The notes below the pieces were generated by a model. It saw only the letters and a program-made list of their open reading frames with translations, made no database searches and had not been told where the DNA came from. Shown here in pieces: positions 2,130 to 11,148 of a stretch of 64,000 nucleotides of DNA. Position 1 is the first letter of the stretch. Every line of letters begins with the position of its first letter. The position numbers were made by a program, and so were the translations under genes. The DNA lies in NCBI RefSeq assembly GCF_019352895.1, contig NZ_JAAAFX010000014.1, forward strand, positions 510,790 to 574,789, written 5' to 3'. The DNA comes from Variovorax boronicumulans. Its GTDB lineage: Bacteria > Pseudomonadota > Gammaproteobacteria > Burkholderiales > Burkholderiaceae_C.

Positions 2130-3080
2130 ATGTCGATCCTTCGCAAATGGTGGCATGCCGCCACGCTCGCCACCCTGACCTTCACCGCGGCGGCCCCGGC
2201 CGCCTTCGCGCAGGCCTCGGCCGATGGCAGCGGTCCGCTCGTGTCCACCGAATGGCTCGACAGGAACCTCAAGAACCCCAAGCTGCGCGTGATCGAGGTC
2301 AGCGTGAACCCGGGCCTCTACGAGCGCGGCCATGTGCCGGGCGCGGTCAACTTCTCGTGGCACGCCGACCTCAACGACCGCGTGCGCCGCGACATCGTGA
2401 GCCAGGCCGATTTCGAGAAGCTGCTGTCGGCCGCGGGCGTCGACAACGACAGCACCGTGGTGCTCTACGGCGACAACAACAACTGGTTCGCGGCCTGGGG
2501 CGCCTGGGTGTTCGAGCAGTACGGCGTGCGCAACGTCAAGCTGCTCGACGGCGGCCGCAAGAAGTGGGAAGCCGAAGGCCGCGTGCTCGAGAACCGCGCA
2601 CCGGAAGTCGTGGCCACGCGCTACAAGGTCACGCGCCCGCATCCCGAACTGCGCGCGCGCCTGACCGACGTGCTGGGCGTGGCCGAAGGCAAGACCGACG
2701 CCAGGCTGGTCGACATCCGCTCGGCCGACGAGTACACCGGCAAGATCTTCGCGCCGCCGGGCGCCGCCGAGCTTGCGGTGCGCGCCGGCCACATCCCGGG
2801 CGCGGCCAACGTGCCCTGGGGCCGTGCGGTCAACGAAGACGGCACCTTCAAGTCGGCCGCCGAACTCAAGGCGCTCTATGCCTCGGTCGGCATCGACGGC
2901 AGCAAGCCGGTCATCACCTACTGCCGCATCGGCGAGCGGTCGAGCCACACCTGGTTCGCGCTGACCAAGATCCTGGGCTACCAGAACGTGCGCAACTACG
3001 ACGGCTCGTGGACCGAGTACGGCAATGCCGTGGGCGTGCCGGTGAGCAACCCCAGCGGCACGGTCTGGGCGTCGAAGTAG
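2130..3080 (+). CDS. Exported two-domain rhodanese (thiosulfate sulfurtransferase)
   Basis: Predicted sulfurtransferase of 316 residues moving sulfane sulfur from thiosulfate or a persulfide to an acceptor. The ATG at 2130 follows AGGAGA at 2120-2125. Residues 1-31 form a signal peptide ending AFAQA, so the protein acts in the periplasm. There are two rhodanese domains. The N-terminal one (LLDGGRKKWEAEG) has no active-site cysteine. The C-terminal one has the loop CRIGERSSHTW with catalytic C265. It lies 131 bp after the desulfurase and before a YeeE-type permease, so periplasmic thiosulfate processing coupled to import is likely. A strong terminator follows the stop codon. Substrate is inferred from the family. 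Confidence 0.9.
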   Translation: MSILRKWWHAATLATLTFTAAAPAAFAQASADGSGPLVSTEWLDRNLKNPKLRVIEVSVNPGLYERGHVPGAVNFSWHADLNDRVRRDIVSQADFEKLLSAAGVDNDSTVVLYGDNNNWFAAWGAWVFEQYGVRNVKLLDGGRKKWEAEGRVLENRAPEVVATRYKVTRPHPELRARLTDVLGVAEGKTDARLVDIRSADEYTGKIFAPPGAAELAVRAGHIPGAANVPWGRAVNEDGTFKSAAELKALYASVGIDGSKPVITYCRIGERSSHTWFALTKILGYQNVRNYDGSWTEYGNAVGVPVSNPSGTVWASK

Positions 3081-3114
3081 GCCGCTTTTCTTCTTTCTTT
3101 TTTCTTTGGGTGGG

Positions 3115-3150
3115 GACAACTCGTTGTCTCCTCGTCGTGTGGTAACGACG
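3115..3150 (+). other. Two hairpins upstream of the terminator
   Basis: GACAA-CTCG-TTGTC (3115-3128, extendable to GACAAC/GTTGTC) and CGTCGT-gtggta-ACGACG (3133-3150) are consecutive small stem-loops. They lie directly before the rhodanese terminator and after a pyrimidine-rich tract (about 3084-3107). They could be part of an RNA leader or attenuator controlling the downstream permease. No antiterminator pairing with the terminator was identified by eye. Confidence 0.45.
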
Positions 3151-3153
3151 TTC

Positions 3154-3181
3154 GGGCGGACCTTGGGGTCCGCCCTTTTTT
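3154..3181 (+). terminator. Rho-independent terminator after the rhodanese
   Basis: GGGCGGACC (3154-3162), loop TTGG (3163-3166), GGTCCGCCC (3167-3175), then six T (3176-3181). This is a perfect 9-bp GC-rich stem with a T tail. It sits only 20 bases before the permease start codon, so permease transcription needs read-through or a promoter embedded in 3081-3153. Confidence 0.9.
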
Positions 3182-3201
3182 CGTGAGGAGTGGGTTTGAA
3201 G

Positions 3202-4416
3202 ATGACGACGACGACAGCGCAGATTCCGGTGGCCGATGCGCCCGCGGGGCCCGGCCGCGTGGGCTGGATCGCCGCCGCATTGGTCGTGCTGCTGACCGTG
3301 GCCGGCGTGCAGGCATTGGGCGAACGCAGCGGCGGGCGCGCGCTGGCCTTCGCGGCCGGCCTGGGCGCGTTGCTGGGCGTGGTGCTGCAGCGCTCGCGCT
3401 TCTGCTTCTACTGCCATGCGCGCGACTACTTCGAGCGCGGCGATGCGCGCGGCCTGCTGGCCATCGTCGCGGCGCTGGCGGTCGGCACGCTGGGCATGCA
3501 CGTGGTCATGACCGGCTGGCTGCCCGTGCCCATGCCGGGGCGGCTGCCACCCGACGCCCACATCGGCCCGGTGAGCTGGGCGCTGGTCCTGGCCGGCCTG
3601 GCCTTCGGCCTGGGCATGGTGGTGTCGGGCTCGTGCATCAGCGCGCACTGGTACCGGCTGGGCGAGGGCTCGCCCACCGCTCCCTTCGCGCTGGTCGGTT
3701 CCGCGGCCGGCTTCGTGCTCGGCTTCAACACCTGGAACGCGCTCTACAGCGCGACCATCGCGACCGCGCCCGTGGTCTGGCTGCCGCATCACCTGGGCTA
3801 TGCGGGGTCGGCGGCCGTGCAACTGGGCCTGCTGGCCGGGATCGCCGCGCTGCTGTGGCGCCGGCTGCCGGCCGAAGGCGCGCCCTTGCCGCGTGCCGCC
3901 AGCTTCGGCGCCGCCTTGCGCCGGGCCTTCATCGGTCGCTGGCCGGCGGTGTGGGGCGGTGTCGCGGTCGGCGCCATCGCCGTGATCGTGGTGCTGCGCC
4001 TGCGACCCCTGGGCGTGACCGCGGCGCTGGGCAGTGCCGCGCGCACGGTCGGCGAGCATCAAGGCCTGGTGCCGCAGCGGCTCGAAGGCCTCGACACCTT
4101 CGGCGGCTGCGTGACGGCCGTGCTCGAGCACTTCTGGCAGACACCCAACGCCCTGCTCGTTGCGGGCATCGTGGCCGGCGCGCTGGCGGCGGCGCTGGCG
4201 AGCGGCCAGTTCACGCCACGCGTTCCCAGCCTGCGCCAGGCCGTGCGCGGCCTGGGCGGCGGCCTGCTGCTGGGCTGGGGCGCGATGACGGGGCTGGGCT
4301 GCACCGTGGGCAACCTGCTCTCGGGCACCATGGCCGGCGCGCTCTCGGGCTGGGTCTTCGGCGCCGCGGTGCTGTTCGCGGTGTGGGCCGGACTGCGCCT
4401 GCGCTGGAGCCTCTGA
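3202..4416 (+). CDS. YeeE/YedE family sulfur (thiosulfate-type) permease
   Basis: Integral membrane protein of 404 residues with about ten hydrophobic segments. It carries cysteine motifs typical of YeeE/YedE (DUF395) transporters: SRFCFYCHARD near residue 70, SGSCISAHWYRLGEG near 150, and GLGCTVGNLLSG near 365. In characterised YeeE, conserved cysteines relay thiosulfate through the pore. The ATG at 3202 is chosen because GAGGAG lies at 3185-3190; GTG 3190 and TTG 3196 are in-frame alternatives. It follows an exported rhodanese and a cysteine desulfurase, consistent with sulfur import. A diverged copy of its last 24 codons lies at 9394-9468 on the far side of the AT-rich island. YedE proteins may also serve selenium, so substrate is not certain. 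Confidence 0.88.
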   Translation: MTTTTAQIPVADAPAGPGRVGWIAAALVVLLTVAGVQALGERSGGRALAFAAGLGALLGVVLQRSRFCFYCHARDYFERGDARGLLAIVAALAVGTLGMHVVMTGWLPVPMPGRLPPDAHIGPVSWALVLAGLAFGLGMVVSGSCISAHWYRLGEGSPTAPFALVGSAAGFVLGFNTWNALYSATIATAPVVWLPHHLGYAGSAAVQLGLLAGIAALLWRRLPAEGAPLPRAASFGAALRRAFIGRWPAVWGGVAVGAIAVIVVLRLRPLGVTAALGSAARTVGEHQGLVPQRLEGLDTFGGCVTAVLEHFWQTPNALLVAGIVAGALAAALASGQFTPRVPSLRQAVRGLGGGLLLGWGAMTGLGCTVGNLLSGTMAGALSGWVFGAAVLFAVWAGLRLRWSL

Positions 4417-4467
4417 AAGGGTAGGGAGAGGGTCTGCGCGCAGCGAGATACCTCATGCGCAATCGGT

Positions 4468-4497
4468 CTTTGGTTTGCTCGCCGCGCCTCGCAGAAT
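4468..4497 (+). promoter_or_regulatory. Candidate promoter of the small basic protein, left copy
   Basis: CTTTGG (4468-4473), an 18-base spacer and CAGAAT (4492-4497) resemble a weak sigma70 promoter. The same elements are kept in the right copy ending at 9548. The surrounding 67-base block is much better conserved than the adjacent coding sequence, suggesting function. The assignment is by eye only. Confidence 0.35.
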
Positions 4498-4532
4498 TGC
4501 GTCTGGCGCAGGCCATTTACAAGAGAAATGTG

Positions 4533-4690
4533 ATGACACAGCCCCCCCGTTTCCCCGGTCGACCAGGCGCGTCACGCCGCTGCCCGACCATGCCGAGGCC
4601 CCGGCGTGCGCCGCACGGCTATGCCCCCTGCGTGCCTTGCGGCGTATGCAGGTCGCGGCGCGCAGGATACCCGGTGAGGAACACGCTTTA
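4533..4690 (+). pseudogene. Degenerate copy of the small basic protein gene
   Basis: The ATG at 4533 aligns with the intact gene at 9584. A deletion of roughly 40 bases after the segment GACCAGGCGCGTCAC, plus smaller changes, destroys the frame. Downstream the matching peptide (PLRALRRMQVAARR) is readable only in another frame. This is the left relic of a gene duplicated across the island. Confidence 0.6.
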
Positions 4691-4983
4691 CAAATCGGGC
4701 GGATAGGCGCCTAACAAGTGTCTTCTTCGGCATTCGCCTTAACTGCAGATTACGTCTCTCAAGTCCAGCCAGCCCGTGCGATTCATCATCTGCGAGTTTG
4801 TGTGGCAGCACTTAACGATTTGTATGCAGTTCTGAGCGCATGTGGCGTGGCGTCTTCGCGTCACATTGGCTTTAACAGGAAAATGTTTATTTGCTAGCTC
4901 AAGGCTTGCAAACGAGACGTGACGCGCTGGAATGCGCTACGCCATGCGCCATCTCGCGTCGAGTTTTCTTTCTTCGGCCTCGC
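4691..4983. other. Left edge of the AT-rich island, no supported gene
   Basis: Base composition drops sharply here. An unconserved-looking open frame of 59 codons runs 4718-4897 with no ribosome site. No integrase, tRNA or insertion-sequence end could be recognised. Confidence 0.5.
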
Positions 4984-6597
4984 TCACGGGAAGCTGAAGT
5001 CGTCTAGAAAGTCGAAATCTATCACCGATAAATTTCTGTGGGAAACTGCAAAAACTGTCGCGCCCGGGATTGTTGTTTTTATCAATAGCCAGACTTTTTC
5101 TTCGGTGCGTACGTCCATGGAGTTAGTGGCTTCGTCAAAGAAGACTAGAAATGGATTTCTCAAGATGCATCTGGAAATGGCGAGAAATTGAAGCTCGCCT
5201 GCGGAGAGTTGCTCTACGTCTTCATCTATATTGATGGCACTGTTGCCGATCTCTCTGGCCCAGATGTTCCAGTGAAATTTTACTTTCTCACGATCGACAC
5301 TCTTGTCTCCAAGAGCGATATTTTCGAAAATGGATCCTCGAATCGTTGGTGGTGTTGGGTTTAGATAGTGGATCCTTGTCACGGAAGCGCCGGCTAGTTC
5401 TTGCAATTCGCCATATATCCTTTGCAAGTATGTTGATTTTCCAGTGCCAGAGGGGCCTCGCACATTGATCCATACGCCGGCGCCAATAGTCAAATGCTCG
5501 TTACTTACGTGGTAAACACGAGACTTGGAAAGCGATAACGAGCTCCAATTTTTCGAGCGTTCCGGAGAGAAGGTGACGTTTAATTTCTCTTTTTTTAACT
5601 TCTCTATGAGTTCATAACCTGCTTCGATTGCAATCAGGCCGTTTTGAATATTGTTGATTGCGGTGGAGGCGTTGGATAATGGATTTAAAACCCTGTCAAG
5701 ATATATTAAAAGTAGAAAGAAGCTGCCAGCGGTTGCAGCCGTTCCGCTAGGGTTGTAAATTCCCCATGATAATACTATCGTGTAAATAAAAAGTGTGATG
5801 GCGGATAGGTAAAGTCCTCGCTCTGTTTTTACGGAGAAGAATTTCTGATGGCTTTCTACAGAGTTTGCGACGGCGGCCGACAGGCGATCTTCAAGAAAGG
5901 GTGCTGCATTGAAGACGCGGGCAAGGGTAGGATTGGATATGTATTCGGAAAGAAAAGAGGACGCAGTGTTGTCCGCTTGATTCGCGATTCGAGCCAAAGA
6001 TAATTCTTTGTTTCGTTTGAACGAGATTCCAATCATAAATATGATGCCGCCTACGATCATGTAGGCTGCGACCAATGGGCCAATGACAATGCCGATGGCG
6101 ATGCAGGCAATGAGAAGCTCAATTGACGTTGGAATGATGACGGATAGGAATCCGTGCAAAATTCCAATGGAGCCTACCTCCAATTTTGACATCGCAGCTG
6201 CCTGCTCTGCGATCCATCCAGCGGAGTCGCCATTTCGGCCCTCATGCCGTGGAATTCGAGAAATCCTGCTTGCAAAAATGGAGCAAAAAGTGTAGGAAAT
6301 TTGGTAAAGAATGGGATTGACCAATTTCCATCTTAGATCTACCAGCATTTGCCCGGAAAATCTTAGGCCTATATACAGCGACGCACAGGTAAGCGTTGTC
6401 GAAAGCGGGCTGTTTTCAGATAGAGAGTTTATTGCCCGAGCCATGAGGAGCGGCGCGGCACTGAGAAGTGCCGAGGAGCAGAAAATTATCAAGAATGCCT
6501 TTATCAGCCGGCGAGATAATTGAGAATCGACCCCCTCCAGTAGATCGGACAGCGATCGTCGAGCAACCCCAGAGTCGAAGAACTCAAAGACTGACAT
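4984..6597 (-). CDS. ABC exporter half-transporter (membrane domain plus ATPase) of the RiPP-like cluster
   Basis: Protein of 537 residues with about six transmembrane segments in the first 320 residues, then a nucleotide-binding domain. Walker A GPSGTGKST is at 381-389. The signature is a degenerate LSAGE instead of LSGGQ. Walker B FLVFFDEATNSMD has D488, and the H-loop lies in AVSHR. No N-terminal C39 peptidase domain is present, so unlike many LanT exporters it would not cleave a leader itself. The start overlaps the end of the dehydratase gene by 14 bases, implying a translationally coupled operon. Composition is AT-rich like its neighbours and unlike the rest of the window. Export of the modified peptide is inferred from context. 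Confidence 0.85.
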   Translation of the reverse strand: MSVFEFFDSGVARRSLSDLLEGVDSQLSRRLIKAFLIIFCSSALLSAAPLLMARAINSLSENSPLSTTLTCASLYIGLRFSGQMLVDLRWKLVNPILYQISYTFCSIFASRISRIPRHEGRNGDSAGWIAEQAAAMSKLEVGSIGILHGFLSVIIPTSIELLIACIAIGIVIGPLVAAYMIVGGIIFMIGISFKRNKELSLARIANQADNTASSFLSEYISNPTLARVFNAAPFLEDRLSAAVANSVESHQKFFSVKTERGLYLSAITLFIYTIVLSWGIYNPSGTAATAGSFFLLLIYLDRVLNPLSNASTAINNIQNGLIAIEAGYELIEKLKKEKLNVTFSPERSKNWSSLSLSKSRVYHVSNEHLTIGAGVWINVRGPSGTGKSTYLQRIYGELQELAGASVTRIHYLNPTPPTIRGSIFENIALGDKSVDREKVKFHWNIWAREIGNSAINIDEDVEQLSAGELQFLAISRCILRNPFLVFFDEATNSMDVRTEEKVWLLIKTTIPGATVFAVSHRNLSVIDFDFLDDFSFP

Positions 6598-8056
6598 GAG
6601 TTATTTTTTCTTCTATGAGAGAGGGCTTGAGCAAGAAACTCCTCAGTTCTTTGCGCAACCTTGGAAGGTCATTTATTGAGCAAGAATAAATGCATCTGCC
6701 GATTCTCTTGGATAAGGAATCTCTACTGGGAAAGTATTTCACTCGACCTGTCCAATGCATGAGTGCAGGCCCCGATTCCTGCTCTTCCGTCCAGAAGAAT
6801 GGGATGTCTGAATCAAGTAGGTCTCTGAGTTCGCACTTCAGAGTCTCTTTATCCGCTGTGTTGGATAGGCCAATGGCATGGGAGAAGTGGTGGATGGCTC
6901 GGCCGAGATTGGTCGCAGTGTCTCCCGAAAATGGACATCTCAGCACCTCCAGTGTTGCGGCATATTGAACCGTTAGTTTGAGTAAAAAGCGAGTGCGCAT
7001 TCCGATCGTAATTTCTTTCAATTCTCGAATGAGGTGCTGACGATTTGAACAGATTTGCCTGTATGCATCTTCAAATCCATCGATTATTTCGTCGCAAAAA
7101 TCAGCGGGATTGACTGGCAATCCACTTTTGCTAATTAATCGATTGTTGCTGGGGCCGGACTCGCTTGTCACATATGCGAGATCTCCATTATTGATTTTCG
7201 CTCCGAATGCTTTGTTGCTTCTGTATGCGCCTAAGATGGAGGACAGATTTGCCCATCGTGAAACCAAGCCGGTATTCAAGAGCCGATCTTCTATTGGGGG
7301 CTTTCCGTGCTCGGTGAAGCTGTAAAAAATACACTCCGCATCAATAATGACCGGCCTCCCGTTCCAGGCGATGAGATTGTCAATGTGAACGTCGGTCATC
7401 TGCAGGGCGTGTGCGACGGCTGTAACAACGCCCAGAGATCTCATAAATTCCCGTGCTTGTGCAGGTGACGCATAGGGCCGACTTTCTAAAAATGGCATTA
7501 CGTACCAATCGTTTTTGGGAGAGCTCCAGAACTTCGGAGGAACTGCATCAATGGCCGTCTTTTCCTTGATTTTTGTCAGAACGAGATGTAGGGCGAGATG
7601 CGGGCGGGGGTCTCTTGACTTGAACACATATTTCGATCCGCAAATTTCGAATATGACTGCACGCTCGCACTCGCCGTGCGAATCTCCGTTGGTAAATTGA
7701 ATGAATATTTTCTCCGCATCGATGCCCAGCATCTTTTTGAATTCAATCAGCCCATTGTGAAGATTTTGGATGAATCGAAACATTCGAGCTGAGCGGCGTA
7801 TCAGCATTCCTTCGAGAAAGCTACTGAATTCTTTCTGAATTTCTGCGTGGCGTCTAGAGTTGAGACTTTCAAAGTGTTTGAATTGGAGGGTGACCTGCTG
7901 AAAATCGATTTCGATTTCTCTTTCAAGGGCCTTCATGTCAAATAGGGCTGTCAGCGATCTTTCGGAACTTATTCTGTTAATAAGTTGGCAAAGGGTGGAG
8001 GATAAGATGGTGGTTGCGTCCCGTTGAGCGCGACAATGAATACTTCCTTTCTTCAT
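6584..8056 (-). CDS. Stand-alone LanM-type dehydratase domain protein (DUF4135-like), no cyclase domain
   Basis: Predicted peptide dehydratase of 490 residues. It matches the N-terminal DUF4135 half of class II lanthipeptide synthetases, which phosphorylate Ser/Thr and eliminate phosphate to give dehydroamino acids. Motifs, numbered from the ATG at 8056, are GDSHGE (124-129), YVFK with K146, DVHIDN (222-227) and IIDAE (to 241), in the order seen in the kinase-like active site. The usual LanC-like cyclase half (with Zn-binding Cys/His) is absent; LanM enzymes are about 1000 residues. The start at 8056 is chosen because it lies one base after the acetyltransferase stop; an open frame extends to 8233 but overlaps that gene. 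Remote family assignment is by motif recognition. Confidence 0.72.
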   Translation of the reverse strand: MKKGSIHCRAQRDATTILSSTLCQLINRISSERSLTALFDMKALEREIEIDFQQVTLQFKHFESLNSRRHAEIQKEFSSFLEGMLIRRSARMFRFIQNLHNGLIEFKKMLGIDAEKIFIQFTNGDSHGECERAVIFEICGSKYVFKSRDPRPHLALHLVLTKIKEKTAIDAVPPKFWSSPKNDWYVMPFLESRPYASPAQAREFMRSLGVVTAVAHALQMTDVHIDNLIAWNGRPVIIDAECIFYSFTEHGKPPIEDRLLNTGLVSRWANLSSILGAYRSNKAFGAKINNGDLAYVTSESGPSNNRLISKSGLPVNPADFCDEIIDGFEDAYRQICSNRQHLIRELKEITIGMRTRFLLKLTVQYAATLEVLRCPFSGDTATNLGRAIHHFSHAIGLSNTADKETLKCELRDLLDSDIPFFWTEEQESGPALMHWTGRVKYFPSRDSLSKRIGRCIYSCSINDLPRLRKELRSFLLKPSLIEEKITHVSL

Positions 8057-8057
8057 T

Positions 8058-8504
8058 TTAATTCGTGAGATGGGCGGGTCGAAAGTGCTTTGGTCCTCGA
8101 CTGCATGCGATGATTTTTGCTTTCTCGGTGATCGAGTTTTCATTGAGAAAGTAAAGCTCGTCGCTGAATGCGATTGAGAAGATCGCTGTATGTTGGCATC
8201 GGATGGTAATTGCGCGGACCAGCTGAGATTCAATGCCTTTGTGGCGATGCGGTGGAATTACGCAAATCTCCGCAAGGTACGTTGTTGTTATGTTGTCGGT
8301 GAATGCCCTTGAAATTCCGATTAGGCGTTGATCTTGGTCGTGAATGGCGACGGCGGTAATGGTCCCGGGGCAAAAGAACTTCTTACTAAAATCCTGAATT
8401 TGCAGGTATTCCGCTGCCAATCCGTAGCCGCATTTCTCCAGTAGTTGGGCTATTTCTTTGTCTGTAAATCTCGAGTGTTCAAAAGATATGATGGCCGAAT
8501 TCAT
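8058..8504 (-). CDS. GNAT family N-acetyltransferase
   Basis: Small acyl-CoA-dependent acetyltransferase of 148 residues. The core GNAT pattern is visible: strand AEICVIPPHRHKGIESQLV with the pyrophosphate-binding R/HxxGI segment, preceded by strands around ITAVAIHDQDQRLIGIS. It lies between the candidate precursor peptide and the dehydratase domain, separated from the precursor by a terminator and ending one base before the dehydratase start. Acetylation of the mature peptide, or of a toxic product as self-protection, are both possible. Substrate is unknown. Confidence 0.72.
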   Translation of the reverse strand: MNSAIISFEHSRFTDKEIAQLLEKCGYGLAAEYLQIQDFSKKFFCPGTITAVAIHDQDQRLIGISRAFTDNITTTYLAEICVIPPHRHKGIESQLVRAITIRCQHTAIFSIAFSDELYFLNENSITEKAKIIACSRGPKHFRPAHLTN

Positions 8505-8523
8505 TCGTATTCTCTGTTGTGTA

Positions 8524-8554
8524 TTAAAAGAAAAGGGAGGCTATTCCTCCCTTT
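8524..8554 (-). terminator. Terminator/attenuator between precursor and downstream genes
   Basis: AAAGGGAGG (8532-8540), loop CTATT (8541-8545) and CCTCCCTTT (8546-8554) form a perfect 9-bp stem. On the minus strand it is followed by TCTTTTAA, giving a T-rich tail. It sits just after the candidate precursor gene. Partial termination there would give more precursor mRNA than enzyme mRNA, a common arrangement in RiPP clusters. Confidence 0.8.
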
Positions 8555-8585
8555 CTATTTTATTGATTTGTGAATCGATATATGG

Positions 8586-8813
8586 TCAGCACATATGCGG
8601 TGCGATCTCGCATGTGCCGCTGGCGCAGCATTTGGTGGTTGCATTCGCAAGAATCGATCGAAGGGGCCCGGTCGGGTCGATGTAGGAATGAAAGATCTCA
8701 AAGAGTTCGTTCTTTTTTCCGTCCGGATCGACCACCGTATGAGTGCTTCTGTTCTCGAATCCACTTGCCAGGACCAGGCATCTTTCGACATCTATAAGTG
8801 CAAGATTTTGCAT
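8586..8813 (-). CDS. Candidate RiPP (lanthipeptide-like) precursor peptide
   Basis: Small protein of 75 residues with a charged, Cys-poor leader-like N-terminus (about 1-55) and a Cys/Thr-rich tail. The last residues ATTKCCASGTCEIAPHMC hold T59, T60, S65, T67 and C62, C63, C68, C75, that is four dehydratable residues and four thiols. The ATG at 8813 is preceded at about 5 bases by AAGGGA. It is the first gene of the minus-strand operon and is followed by a terminator, then acetyltransferase, dehydratase and exporter. No double-glycine cleavage site is evident. No homologue is recalled, so the assignment rests on composition and position. A longer overlapping frame (8555-8791) lacks a ribosome site. 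Confidence 0.65.
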   Translation of the reverse strand: MQNLALIDVERCLVLASGFENRSTHTVVDPDGKKNELFEIFHSYIDPTGPLRSILANATTKCCASGTCEIAPHMC

Positions 8814-8842
8814 TTTTTCCCTTTTGTGCTTTGATTGTTAAT

Positions 8843-8860
8843 TCGGCCCAATCGGACCGA
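8843..8860. promoter_or_regulatory. Inverted repeat at the predicted start of the precursor transcript
   Basis: TCGGCCC (8843-8849), AATC, GGACCGA (8854-8860): 7-base arms with one mismatch. It lies directly downstream of the predicted -10 box on the minus strand, a typical repressor-operator position. No regulator gene is present in the island. Confidence 0.4.
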
Positions 8861-8864
8861 TGCT

Positions 8865-8893
8865 AGGGTACTTCATAGATTTGCGTTGGTCAA
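8865..8893 (-). promoter_or_regulatory. Candidate sigma70 promoter of the RiPP-like operon
   Basis: On the minus strand TTGACC (8893-8888), a 17-base spacer and TACCCT (8870-8865) give a good -35 with a weak -10. Transcription would start near 8858, leaving a leader of about 45 bases before the precursor ATG at 8813. Confidence 0.45.
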
Positions 8894-9393
8894 ATTGCGG
8901 GATTCTTTGCTTTCAATGTTGCTGTGTAATGAATTCGTATTGTTTTTCTGTGCGCATTTTGTGCGAAATTTGTTAATTCTTTATGCGGCAAGTTGTGTGT
9001 TTTGTGTCCAAGTAGACAGCCGTCGCTATATTGAGATTTTTTGTAGCGAATTCTGTTGCGGACGGGGGTCTTCGATTCGTCGACGACGGCAGAAGTGGGC
9101 TCAACACCTCGATCGATCTGTGGAGGACGCGGGGGCGACGCTTCGTCGCGTGGATGGGTTGCGACCGCTTGCACAGTGAAGAGCGAATTTCTCTGTCACG
9201 CCATGCCGACTGACGCATCCATGCGCGCGTGGAGGGCGGCGCCTGACGAGGCCCGCGGCCTTGGCGCCTTAATGCTTCGGCTGATGTCGCATGTCGACTG
9301 CGCCGCGATGGGCCTAGGCGCGGTGGTCATCTGAAGCTCGCAAACGCCAGAGCAGAAAGGCCGAGGTCTACTCTGCGGCGCAGTTTGGTCACG
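8894..9393. other. Right edge of the island, no supported gene
   Basis: AT-rich up to about 9055, then rising to the GC level of the surrounding chromosome. Short open frames exist on both strands, but none has a ribosome site or recognisable motif. Nothing resembling an integrase or transposase was seen. Confidence 0.5.
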
Positions 9394-9468
9394 ATGTCGG
9401 GCTGGGTCTTCGGCGCCGCGGTGCTGCTGGCCGTATGGCTCGGGCTGCGGTTCTGTTGGAGTCTCTGA
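9394..9468 (+). pseudogene. Remnant of a yeeE 3' end
   Basis: Reads SGWVFGAAVLLAVWLGLRF and ends WSL-stop, matching the C-terminus of the permease that ends at 4416 (SGWVFGAAVLFAVWAGLRL). The first 30 bases are identical to 4345-4374, then the copies diverge. Nothing upstream of it resembles the rest of the permease. Confidence 0.85.
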
Positions 9469-9780
9469 GCGCGCGTTGTCGGGTCTGCGCGCAGCGAGAT
9501 TCCTCATGCGCAATCGGTCTTTGGGTTGCTCGCCGCGCCTCGCAGAATCGAGCACGGCGCAAGCCATTGAAGAGAGAAATCCGATGACCACACAGCACCC
9601 CCCCGTTTCCCCGGTCGAGCAGGCTCGACACGTGATCGGCGTGACGCGCCAGGCCTGGCGCGTGGCGCCGTTGTCGGAGCGTGCCGAAGCGCGACGTGCG
9701 CCTCATGGTTATGTGCCCTTGCGTGCCTTGAGGCGCGTGCAGATCGCGGCGCAACGCCGGCTGCCCGTGGGTGGGGCGCT
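9397..9780 (+). repeat. Right copy of the island-flanking direct repeat
   Basis: Partner of 4345-4690. It contains the diverged yeeE tail, the strongly conserved 67-base non-coding block (9482-9548) and the intact small basic gene. The two copies bracket about 4.7 kb of AT-rich DNA. Confidence 0.85.
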
Positions 9781-9796
9781 GGCGCATTCCTGGTAA
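9584..9796 (+). CDS. Small basic protein of unknown function
   Basis: 70 residues, Arg/Ala/His-rich, with the segment RRAPHGYVPLRALRRVQIAAQRR. No signal peptide, membrane segment or known motif is seen. The ATG at 9584 follows AGAGAGAAA (9570-9578), and a promoter-like CTTTGG/CAGAAT pair precedes it in the conserved 67-base block. A decayed copy lies at 4533-4690, behind the intact yeeE. Ancestrally this gene probably stood directly after yeeE, so a link to sulfur metabolism is possible but unproven. Function not recognised. Confidence 0.5.
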   Translation: MTTQHPPVSPVEQARHVIGVTRQAWRVAPLSERAEARRAPHGYVPLRALRRVQIAAQRRLPVGGALAHSW

Positions 9797-9819
9797 GCCG
9801 GCCGGACGAAAGACCGCGC

Positions 9820-11021
9820 CTAGCCTCCGGCGGGCGTCGCTGCGCGCTGGACGCGGGAGTCCTTCCCGAGCCGCCAGGCCATCGCGGTCCCGACGACCGC
9901 CGCGACGAAGCCCCCCAGGAACACGCTGGAATGGCCGAGGTGGTCGGCCATCAGGCCGGCCAGCGGACCGGTCGCGCCGTACGCCAGGTCCTGGAACGCC
10001 GCGAAGCCCCCGATGGCCGTGCCGCGCAGGTGCGCCGGCACGCGCTTGACCGCCTCGAGCCCCATGGCGGGAAACACCATCGAGCACCCCATGCCCGTCA
10101 GCAGGGCTCCCGCCATGGCCACCGCGGGATGGGGCGCCAGCCACAGCAGCGCCTGGCCCAGCGCCTCGACCGTCAAGGAAACCAGTGCGACCCGGTTGCC
10201 GCCGATGCGGTCGGGCAGGCGGCCCGCCACCAGTCGCAGCACGACGAAGCCGAGGCCGAAACAGGTCAGCCCATAGCCGGCGCCCTGCCAGCCATGGGCC
10301 AGGAAGTACAGCGGAAAGAACGCGCCCAGGGCCGCGAAACCCACGCCTTGCAAGCCCACGACCGCACCCTGCTTCCAGATCAGTCGCAGTACGTCGGAGA
10401 AGGGGGCGCGGCGTCCCGGCGCGGACCGGGCCGGCGCGATGGACCACAGCATCGCGCCACTGACCAGCGGCAGGACGATGCTGCCCGCCATCAGGTCGGC
10501 GAAGCCGAGCTTCCCAACAGCCAGAGGCCGAGGGGTCCGCCCACCGCGAACGCGCCATACAGCCCGGTGCCGACGAGCGCCATGACCTGGCCCGAGCGCG
10601 TCGCGCCCATGGCCGCCATGGCCCAGCCCAGCATGCCGACCAGCGCGAAGCTCTCGCCCAGGCCCAGCACGAGTCGCCCCGCCAGCAGCACCAGGTACGC
10701 ACCGGCGCCATGGCCGAGGGCGGGCAGCGCGGAGGCCCAGCACAGCAGCGACGCGGCCGCGTAAAGGAACAGGCCCCTGAACATCGCGACCTTGCCGCCA
10801 CGTTCGTCGGCCAGCCGGCCCGCCCAGCCACGGCTCAGGAGGGTGGACAGAAAGGCGATGCCCACGGCCAGGCCGGACGCGACATTGCCCATGCCCAACC
10901 TTTGCGACACATGGACCGCCACCGCCGGCATCGACATCGCGACCGACAGGTAGCCGAGGAAAAGCGCGAAGGTCATCCAGACCAGTTCGCGCAGGGAAGA
11001 ATTTGCCTGGACGTTCGTCAT
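9820..11021 (-). pseudogene. MFS transporter (YhhS/YfcJ-like) split by a frameshift
   Basis: Two overlapping frames together form one major facilitator protein of about 400 residues. The first part begins MTNVQANSSLRELVW at 11021 and runs to GGPLGLWLL. The second continues in another frame from GKLGFADLMAG and ends at 9820. The switch lies around 10505-10530. The span is 1202 bases, not a multiple of three, consistent with one missing or extra base. Twelve hydrophobic segments and the motif WAGRLADERGGK after the second helix fit a 12-TM exporter of the YhhS/YfcJ type. It is either a recent pseudogene or a sequencing error. Substrate unknown. Confidence 0.75.
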
Positions 11022-11148
11022 CGAGCGCCGCTCCTTGCGTTTTCAAAGAGGCACCTGCGGGGCGAAGCGGCGGGGAGAGATGGGTACCGAAGCGACCAAC
11101 GCACACCGCCAGTCGGCCGCGGGTGCCACTGGTGATGCGTTGGTTGAC

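Follow-up and report, generated by a model that had tools for sequence, protein, structure and literature searches.

Can the dehydratase half of a LanM enzyme serve in a peptide pathway from which the cyclase is absent? This question is raised by a locus in a 64,000-nucleotide stretch of the Variovorax boronicumulans genome (contig NZ_JAAAFX010000014.1, positions 510,790–574,789; hereafter the window), where four open minus-strand genes within 4984–8813 encode a putative precursor peptide, a GNAT acyltransferase, a DUF4135 protein and an ABC exporter. We read this operon as a complete cyclase-free system for a ribosomally synthesized and post-translationally modified peptide (RiPP), with a probability of roughly 0.6 judging from the sequences compared here. 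The first three of its genes are found side by side again in a distant bacterium, which makes it look like a rare but genuine version of a known kind of peptide pathway and not a broken one.

The 490-residue DUF4135 protein (6584–8056) had been proposed in a first-pass annotation to be a stand-alone dehydratase, and profile searches bore this out: it matches PF13575 with an E-value of 3.4e-39 and has no LANC_like match. It scores 124 bits against the NCBIfam LanM model, under the cut-off of 304. The protein covers the whole dehydratase domain of CylM and LicM2 and ends where their cyclase part starts. It retains all nine catalytic residues listed in the CylM paper, and D125, H127, R356 and T362 are present. 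Among the features of class II lanthipeptide systems, the DUF4135 domain with phosphorylation and elimination residues is therefore found here, and the fused LanC-like zinc cyclase is not. Our catalytic-residue table also contains E366. In the same table, two 5'-truncated relatives (P0007 and P0008) begin downstream of the first three sites, and what it shows for them at those sites (gaps, and stray E/H in P0008) was left out of the count. The list of open reading frames (ORFs) starts the gene at TTG 8233; the relative P0004 favours ATG 8056.

A protein search with the dehydratase returned six records, one of which (P0003) is the window's own; an alignment search at E 1e-20, which was limited to the 7998 candidates with the most words in common, returned the same six. 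P0004 (488 aa, 72% identity), P0006 (486 aa, 47%), P0007 and P0008 all end within about 10 residues of the end of the window dehydratase (P0001). Counting every relative with an intact C-terminus, five proteins of 28–72% identity stop this close to the same point, and none carries a cyclase. This speaks against a decayed class II lanthipeptide cluster, in which LanM would have lost its cyclase and the exporter its C39 peptidase, as do the four open genes, the fixed core of the precursor and the recurrence of the first three genes elsewhere. Decay would fit an acquired island with a repeated flank, and the frameshift in one record, P0005 (96% identity over 52% of the query), which moves into another frame beyond about residue 244 and stops at 289 aa. 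Taken together, decay is very improbable. The first-pass annotation had suggested that LanC-like genes in relatives would reveal it, and no readable relative has a LanC beside or inside its dehydratase. For P0005, a strain difference and an assembly error are both possible.

The recurrence of the first three genes was found by scanning one genome per species across 84,980 species, which yielded four loci (L003–L006), of which L003 was the one read. This locus lies on contig JADFXL010000222.1 of an alphaproteobacterial metagenome-assembled genome. It has the same gene order on one strand: a precursor-like ORF1 of 192 aa (1200–1778), a tandem GNAT (1793–2632) and a cyclase-free DUF4135 protein of 466 aa with no LanC match (2643–4043). 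ORF1 had no match in Pfam or NCBIfam and matched only itself among 385 genomes of its class; its nine matches in the PDB have a best E-value of 0.76, and its structure model, with a predicted local distance difference test (pLDDT) score of 30, was unusable. An assignment of ORF1 to NlpC/P60-like hydrolases, made by eye, was dropped, as no search backs it.

The cyclase-free subfamily is rare. At the family level, 9 of 399 genomes matched, and the window's own was the sole full-length match. The other eight matches were weak and mostly in LanM-sized frames (960–1120 aa at six places in G128, G221, G248, G253 and G334; 133 aa in G443); G166 and G242 (L019) were fetched, and for the remainder the length of the open frame was the sole measure. 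Among genomes of the class to which L003 belongs, 8 of 385 matched, G495 at full length and seven weakly, in frames of 791–1100 aa as judged by length alone. Within the genus, 2 of 101 genomes have a DUF4135 match, the second case being a LanM-sized frame of 1156 aa. A genome-contig scan with P0001 alone gave 17 stretches with no relative among them, and IMG/VR gave no match to the tail motif described below and, for the A1 query, 43 stretches with no relative. No plasmid matched the L003 GNAT or ORF1; the L003 dehydratase matched 17 plasmid records, and among the ten listed seven are annotated as LanM/CylM, one is hypothetical and two are unannotated. A phage search, made with L003 ORF1 only, had no match. 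The Azospirillum plasmid hit H21 sits in a 1015-aa ORF that has the length of a LanM (judged by length). Another genus of the same family (G166:C187, L018 8739–11419) has a DUF4135 protein of a second cyclase-free kind, with 519 aa, an E-value of 4.9e-40 and no LANC_like match. Its gene overlaps one that encodes a 375-aa JmjC_2 protein (E 5.3e-23), and no precursor was recognised there.

The putative precursor is a peptide of 75 aa (8586–8813) that matches nothing in Pfam or NCBIfam at E 1. A protein search with it returned two relatives besides itself, P0009 (73% identity) and P0010 (42%). As both share a fixed core, the precursor is more than a chance ORF. The putative core, TTKCCASGTCEIAPHMC (8589–8639), is 17 residues long in all three peptides. 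It is identical to that of P0009 at 17/17 positions and to that of P0010 at 13/17, against 38/58 and 19/56 in the upstream part, and TTKCCASGTCEI is unchanged in both. Gly-Gly directly precedes the core of P0010, which is why we place the probable cleavage before Thr1. The window precursor has Asn-Ala there instead, so its leader protease may differ. P0009 and the dehydratase record P0004 each come from a 5007-base contig, probably the same one. With four Ser/Thr and four Cys in 17 residues, the core has the composition of a class II core.

A similar tail, KCRATGTCDITS, ends the L003 ORF1, and the core Lys is retained in 4/4 tails. By a rough calculation, the chance of the shared tail motif is about 1e-12 per position. 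For roseocin, the abstract of PMC10027976 describes a conserved leader and a diverse core; here the pattern is the opposite, with a fixed core and a drifting upstream part, which suggests one fixed product structure and not a varying antibiotic. More speculatively, and in our judgement rather unlikely, there might be a new RiPP class whose hallmark is a portable tail at the C-terminus, K-C-x-A-[S/T]-G-T-C-[D/E]-I, that is modified by a cyclase-free dehydratase and a GNAT and is borne both by peptides of 75–77 aa and by the 192-aa L003 protein. If so, the tail would yield one invariant structure, which could for instance act as a signal, bind a metal or bind a single target.

The four genes are closely spaced: 81 nt separate the precursor from the GNAT gene, 1 nt separates the latter from the dehydratase gene, and the dehydratase and ABC genes overlap by 14 nt. 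The tight minus-strand operon described in the first-pass annotation was thus recovered, with the correction that the exporter gene (4984–6597) lies mostly outside the interval 6584–8813 given there. A hairpin scan placed an intrinsic terminator in the 81-nt gap, with 10 pairs on the minus strand (8555–8531) and an energy of -16.3 kcal/mol (z -4.31) that was equalled by 0/200 shuffles. The same scan gave 13 terminator-like sites where 5.4 were expected. Given its position between the precursor and GNAT genes, this terminator could allow the precursor to be produced in excess over the enzymes. The 537-aa exporter matches ABC_tran (E 1.4e-11) and, weakly, ABC_membrane (0.0065), and carries Walker A, signature, Walker B and H-loop patterns. 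PADLOC gave two matches for it, both within the ATPase part, and none for the dehydratase, GNAT or precursor.

A profile search found no Peptidase_C39 domain in the exporter. The combination of a C39 exporter and a double-glycine leader, which is frequent though not universal in class II systems, is therefore not found here. The peptidase is missing from the exporter, as had been claimed at first, although C39 domains occur at two places elsewhere in the genome. These domains would favour an ordinary lanthipeptide system that draws its cyclase and leader peptidase in trans from other parts of the genome, and a cyclase of different fold would escape the LANC_like search. That search, however, found no match in the window's own 6.5-Mb genome (the same search matched 1/14 control genomes). 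Nor was a second DUF4135 found in this genome, which is rated 99.93% complete, and the window core is not preceded by Gly-Gly, though that of P0010 is. Supply in trans is accordingly improbable.

On our preferred reading of a complete cyclase-free system, the product is best seen as a peptide containing dehydroalanine (Dha) and dehydrobutyrine, perhaps with spontaneous thioether rings, that is acylated by the GNAT. The DUF4135 enzyme would phosphorylate Ser/Thr of the core (candidates Thr1, Thr2, Ser7 and Thr9) using ATP, and the same active site would eliminate the phosphate to give dehydrobutyrine and dehydroalanine; we infer this dehydration from the retained catalytic residues. With no dedicated cyclase, the core Cys (4, 5, 10 and 17) could add spontaneously where their reactivity permits, form disulfides or remain as free thiols. 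According to passages of PMC13343206, lanthionine forms faster than methyllanthionine when there is no catalyst, and a four-residue ring between the Ser7-derived Dha and Cys10 would thus be the likeliest to form without an enzyme. A protease from outside the operon would cut off the leader, and the ABC transporter would export the product. A quite different outcome, in which the core is phosphorylated and the phosphate stays, is offered by EmbM of the phospeptin pathway. As portrayed in parts of PMC9505594, this LanM-like enzyme has no cyclization domain and no elimination residues, and yields a diphosphorylated peptide from a precursor with a Nif11-like leader and no Cys. The window enzyme has D125, H127, R356 and T362, and its substrate has four core Cys, which makes such a phosphopeptide kinase quite improbable here.

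The single-domain GNAT (148 aa, 8058–8504) matches PF00583 with an E-value of 6.7e-5 (23.6 bits, cut-off 20.7) and shares 35% identity with either half of the tandem L003 GNAT. In the nostolysamides, a GNAT acylates core Lys1 (passages of PMC13060382); in the window, the most plausible acylation candidate is core Lys3. Instead, the GNAT might be a self-protection enzyme or a bystander, which would be compatible with our reading of the other genes. This is unlikely but a possibility to be taken seriously, given the atypical GNAT loop and a relative, 43% identical, that stands alone in G1108. A survey also found GNATs near 198/1412 class II clusters, and its authors, in the parts of PMC12715929 that treat them, favoured roles other than tailoring, toxin modules included. 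A tailoring role is supported by the position of the GNAT between precursor and dehydratase in both the window and L003, and by the core Lys kept in 4/4 tails.

Several points weigh against the reading of a complete system. The predicted structure of the dehydratase is moderate (pLDDT 65.8), with several active-site loops below 50. When cut out of the enzyme, the dehydratase domains of CylM, HalM2 and NukM suffice for dehydration, whereas that of CcaM does not (as stated in portions of PMC10676384); a domain on its own may therefore be inactive. As methyllanthionine forms slowly without an enzyme (again in passages of PMC13343206), Thr-derived rings would be poor. The near-identical dehydratase P0005 shifts frame and ends early. 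The GNAT profile match is weak, and the GNAT loop, RHKGIE, departs from the Q/R-x-x-G-x-G/A given in the cited parts of the nostolysamide paper (PMC13060382). In the L003 GNAT, the N-terminal half (RDRGIE) is likewise off consensus, and the other half (QRRGIG) fits. The G1108 relative (L071 7885–8313, 142 aa) has no DUF4135 or tail-motif neighbour, and of the three members of the order, besides the window's own genome, with a GNAT relative (E 1e-6), none has such a cluster nearby as scanned by eye or motif. The L003 contig is single and short, with a coverage of 2.9 in its title and an N run at about 4059–4144 after the dehydratase gene; no exporter was seen on it, and its lolC-/lolD-like neighbours, so named by eye, might mark an assembly junction. 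By eye, the loop of the G1108 relative reads QKRGIG.

The cluster looks acquired. Its GC content is 46.5% over 4900–9100, compared with 67.3% for the window, and sequence comparison showed that 4345–4661, covering the end of a YeeE/YedE-like gene and sequence beyond it, recurs imperfectly on the other side of the island (9397–9752). In G056, a genome of the same genus, the window segments 3000–4673 (90%) and 9397–9795 (88%) map to one place with a single copy of the repeat, and the cluster is absent. The low GC content, this flanking repeat and the single matching place in G056, the one genome in which the empty site was read and which was chosen as the best match, point to acquisition, perhaps through recombination with donor DNA that brought a flank of its own. 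In G056, some 5 kb of other genes follow before synteny with the window returns from position 9817 (95%), and the site may thus be a recurrent place of gene gain or loss. These genes (L063 4921–9985), of acyl-CoA type by eye, are absent from the window. Beside the island lies a sulfur locus (58–1998, about 2130–3080 and 3190–4416). It holds a family 2A encapsulin cargo cysteine desulfurase (NF041166, E 1.6e-282), a protein that by eye resembles rhodaneses, and the YeeE/YedE-like transporter. To the right, a transporter gene (9820–11021) runs in two frames (ORFs 10491–11021 and 9820–11106), where G056 has one ORF of 400 aa.

How does this system compare with those already known? Like CylM and LicM2, the enzyme has the whole dehydratase domain, its fold and its catalytic residues; unlike them, it has no cyclase domain and no C39 exporter in its operon, and on the cyclase the system fails the class II definition. 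Dehydrazole biosynthesis (passages of PMC10676384) likewise uses DUF4135 dehydration, and gives a product without lanthionine. However, CcaM works only with its fused cyclase domain of class III and with YcaO as partner, neither of which was seen in the window operon; a dehydrazole system was rejected, with no YcaO match in the four genes and nothing matched after the DUF4135 domain. In the selidamides and nostolysamides (NpuA, NpuM and NpuN), as in the window and L003, a GNAT is encoded with the synthetase and precursor, and the core has a Lys. Selidamides carry their acyl group on the side chain of an Orn or Lys, for which the window core offers Lys3 as a candidate. NpuM is a ring-making class II synthetase, though, and NpuN is a tandem GNAT, like that of L003 and unlike that of the window. 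Such operons would be missed by LanC-based lanthipeptide mining of the kind described in parts of PMC7268733. If the GNAT acylates core Lys3, they would provide a two-enzyme route to acylated dehydro-peptides. The window operon is also a small natural system in which two questions can be put: does a LanM dehydratase domain on its own act on a core that contains Cys, and what is the fate of a Cys-rich peptide that is dehydrated in the absence of a cyclase? We found no cyclase-free LanM paired with a GNAT in open-licence PMC papers, the literature covered here, which excludes subscription papers.

The closest parallels are PoyF and EmbM. In the passages of PMC9505594 on polytheonamide, a proteusin, PoyF is a LanM dehydratase domain without a cyclization domain that dehydrates Thr, and the window enzyme, compared with it by description only, probably works as a dehydratase of this type. 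The substrate of PoyF, however, is an NHLP precursor, and the PoyF pathway includes radical-SAM and other enzymes, whereas the window core is Cys-rich and the partner enzyme is a GNAT. EmbM likewise pairs a cyclase-free LanM-like enzyme with a small precursor, and differs in having neither the elimination residues nor the core Cys. As both had been described, the lack of a cyclase is no novelty on its own. No NHLP leader was matched on the window precursor in Pfam or NCBIfam at E 1, nor was a Nif11 leader detected. What sets this system apart from PoyF and EmbM is the combination of a fixed Cys-rich core, a precursor with no detected NHLP or Nif11 leader, and a GNAT partner.

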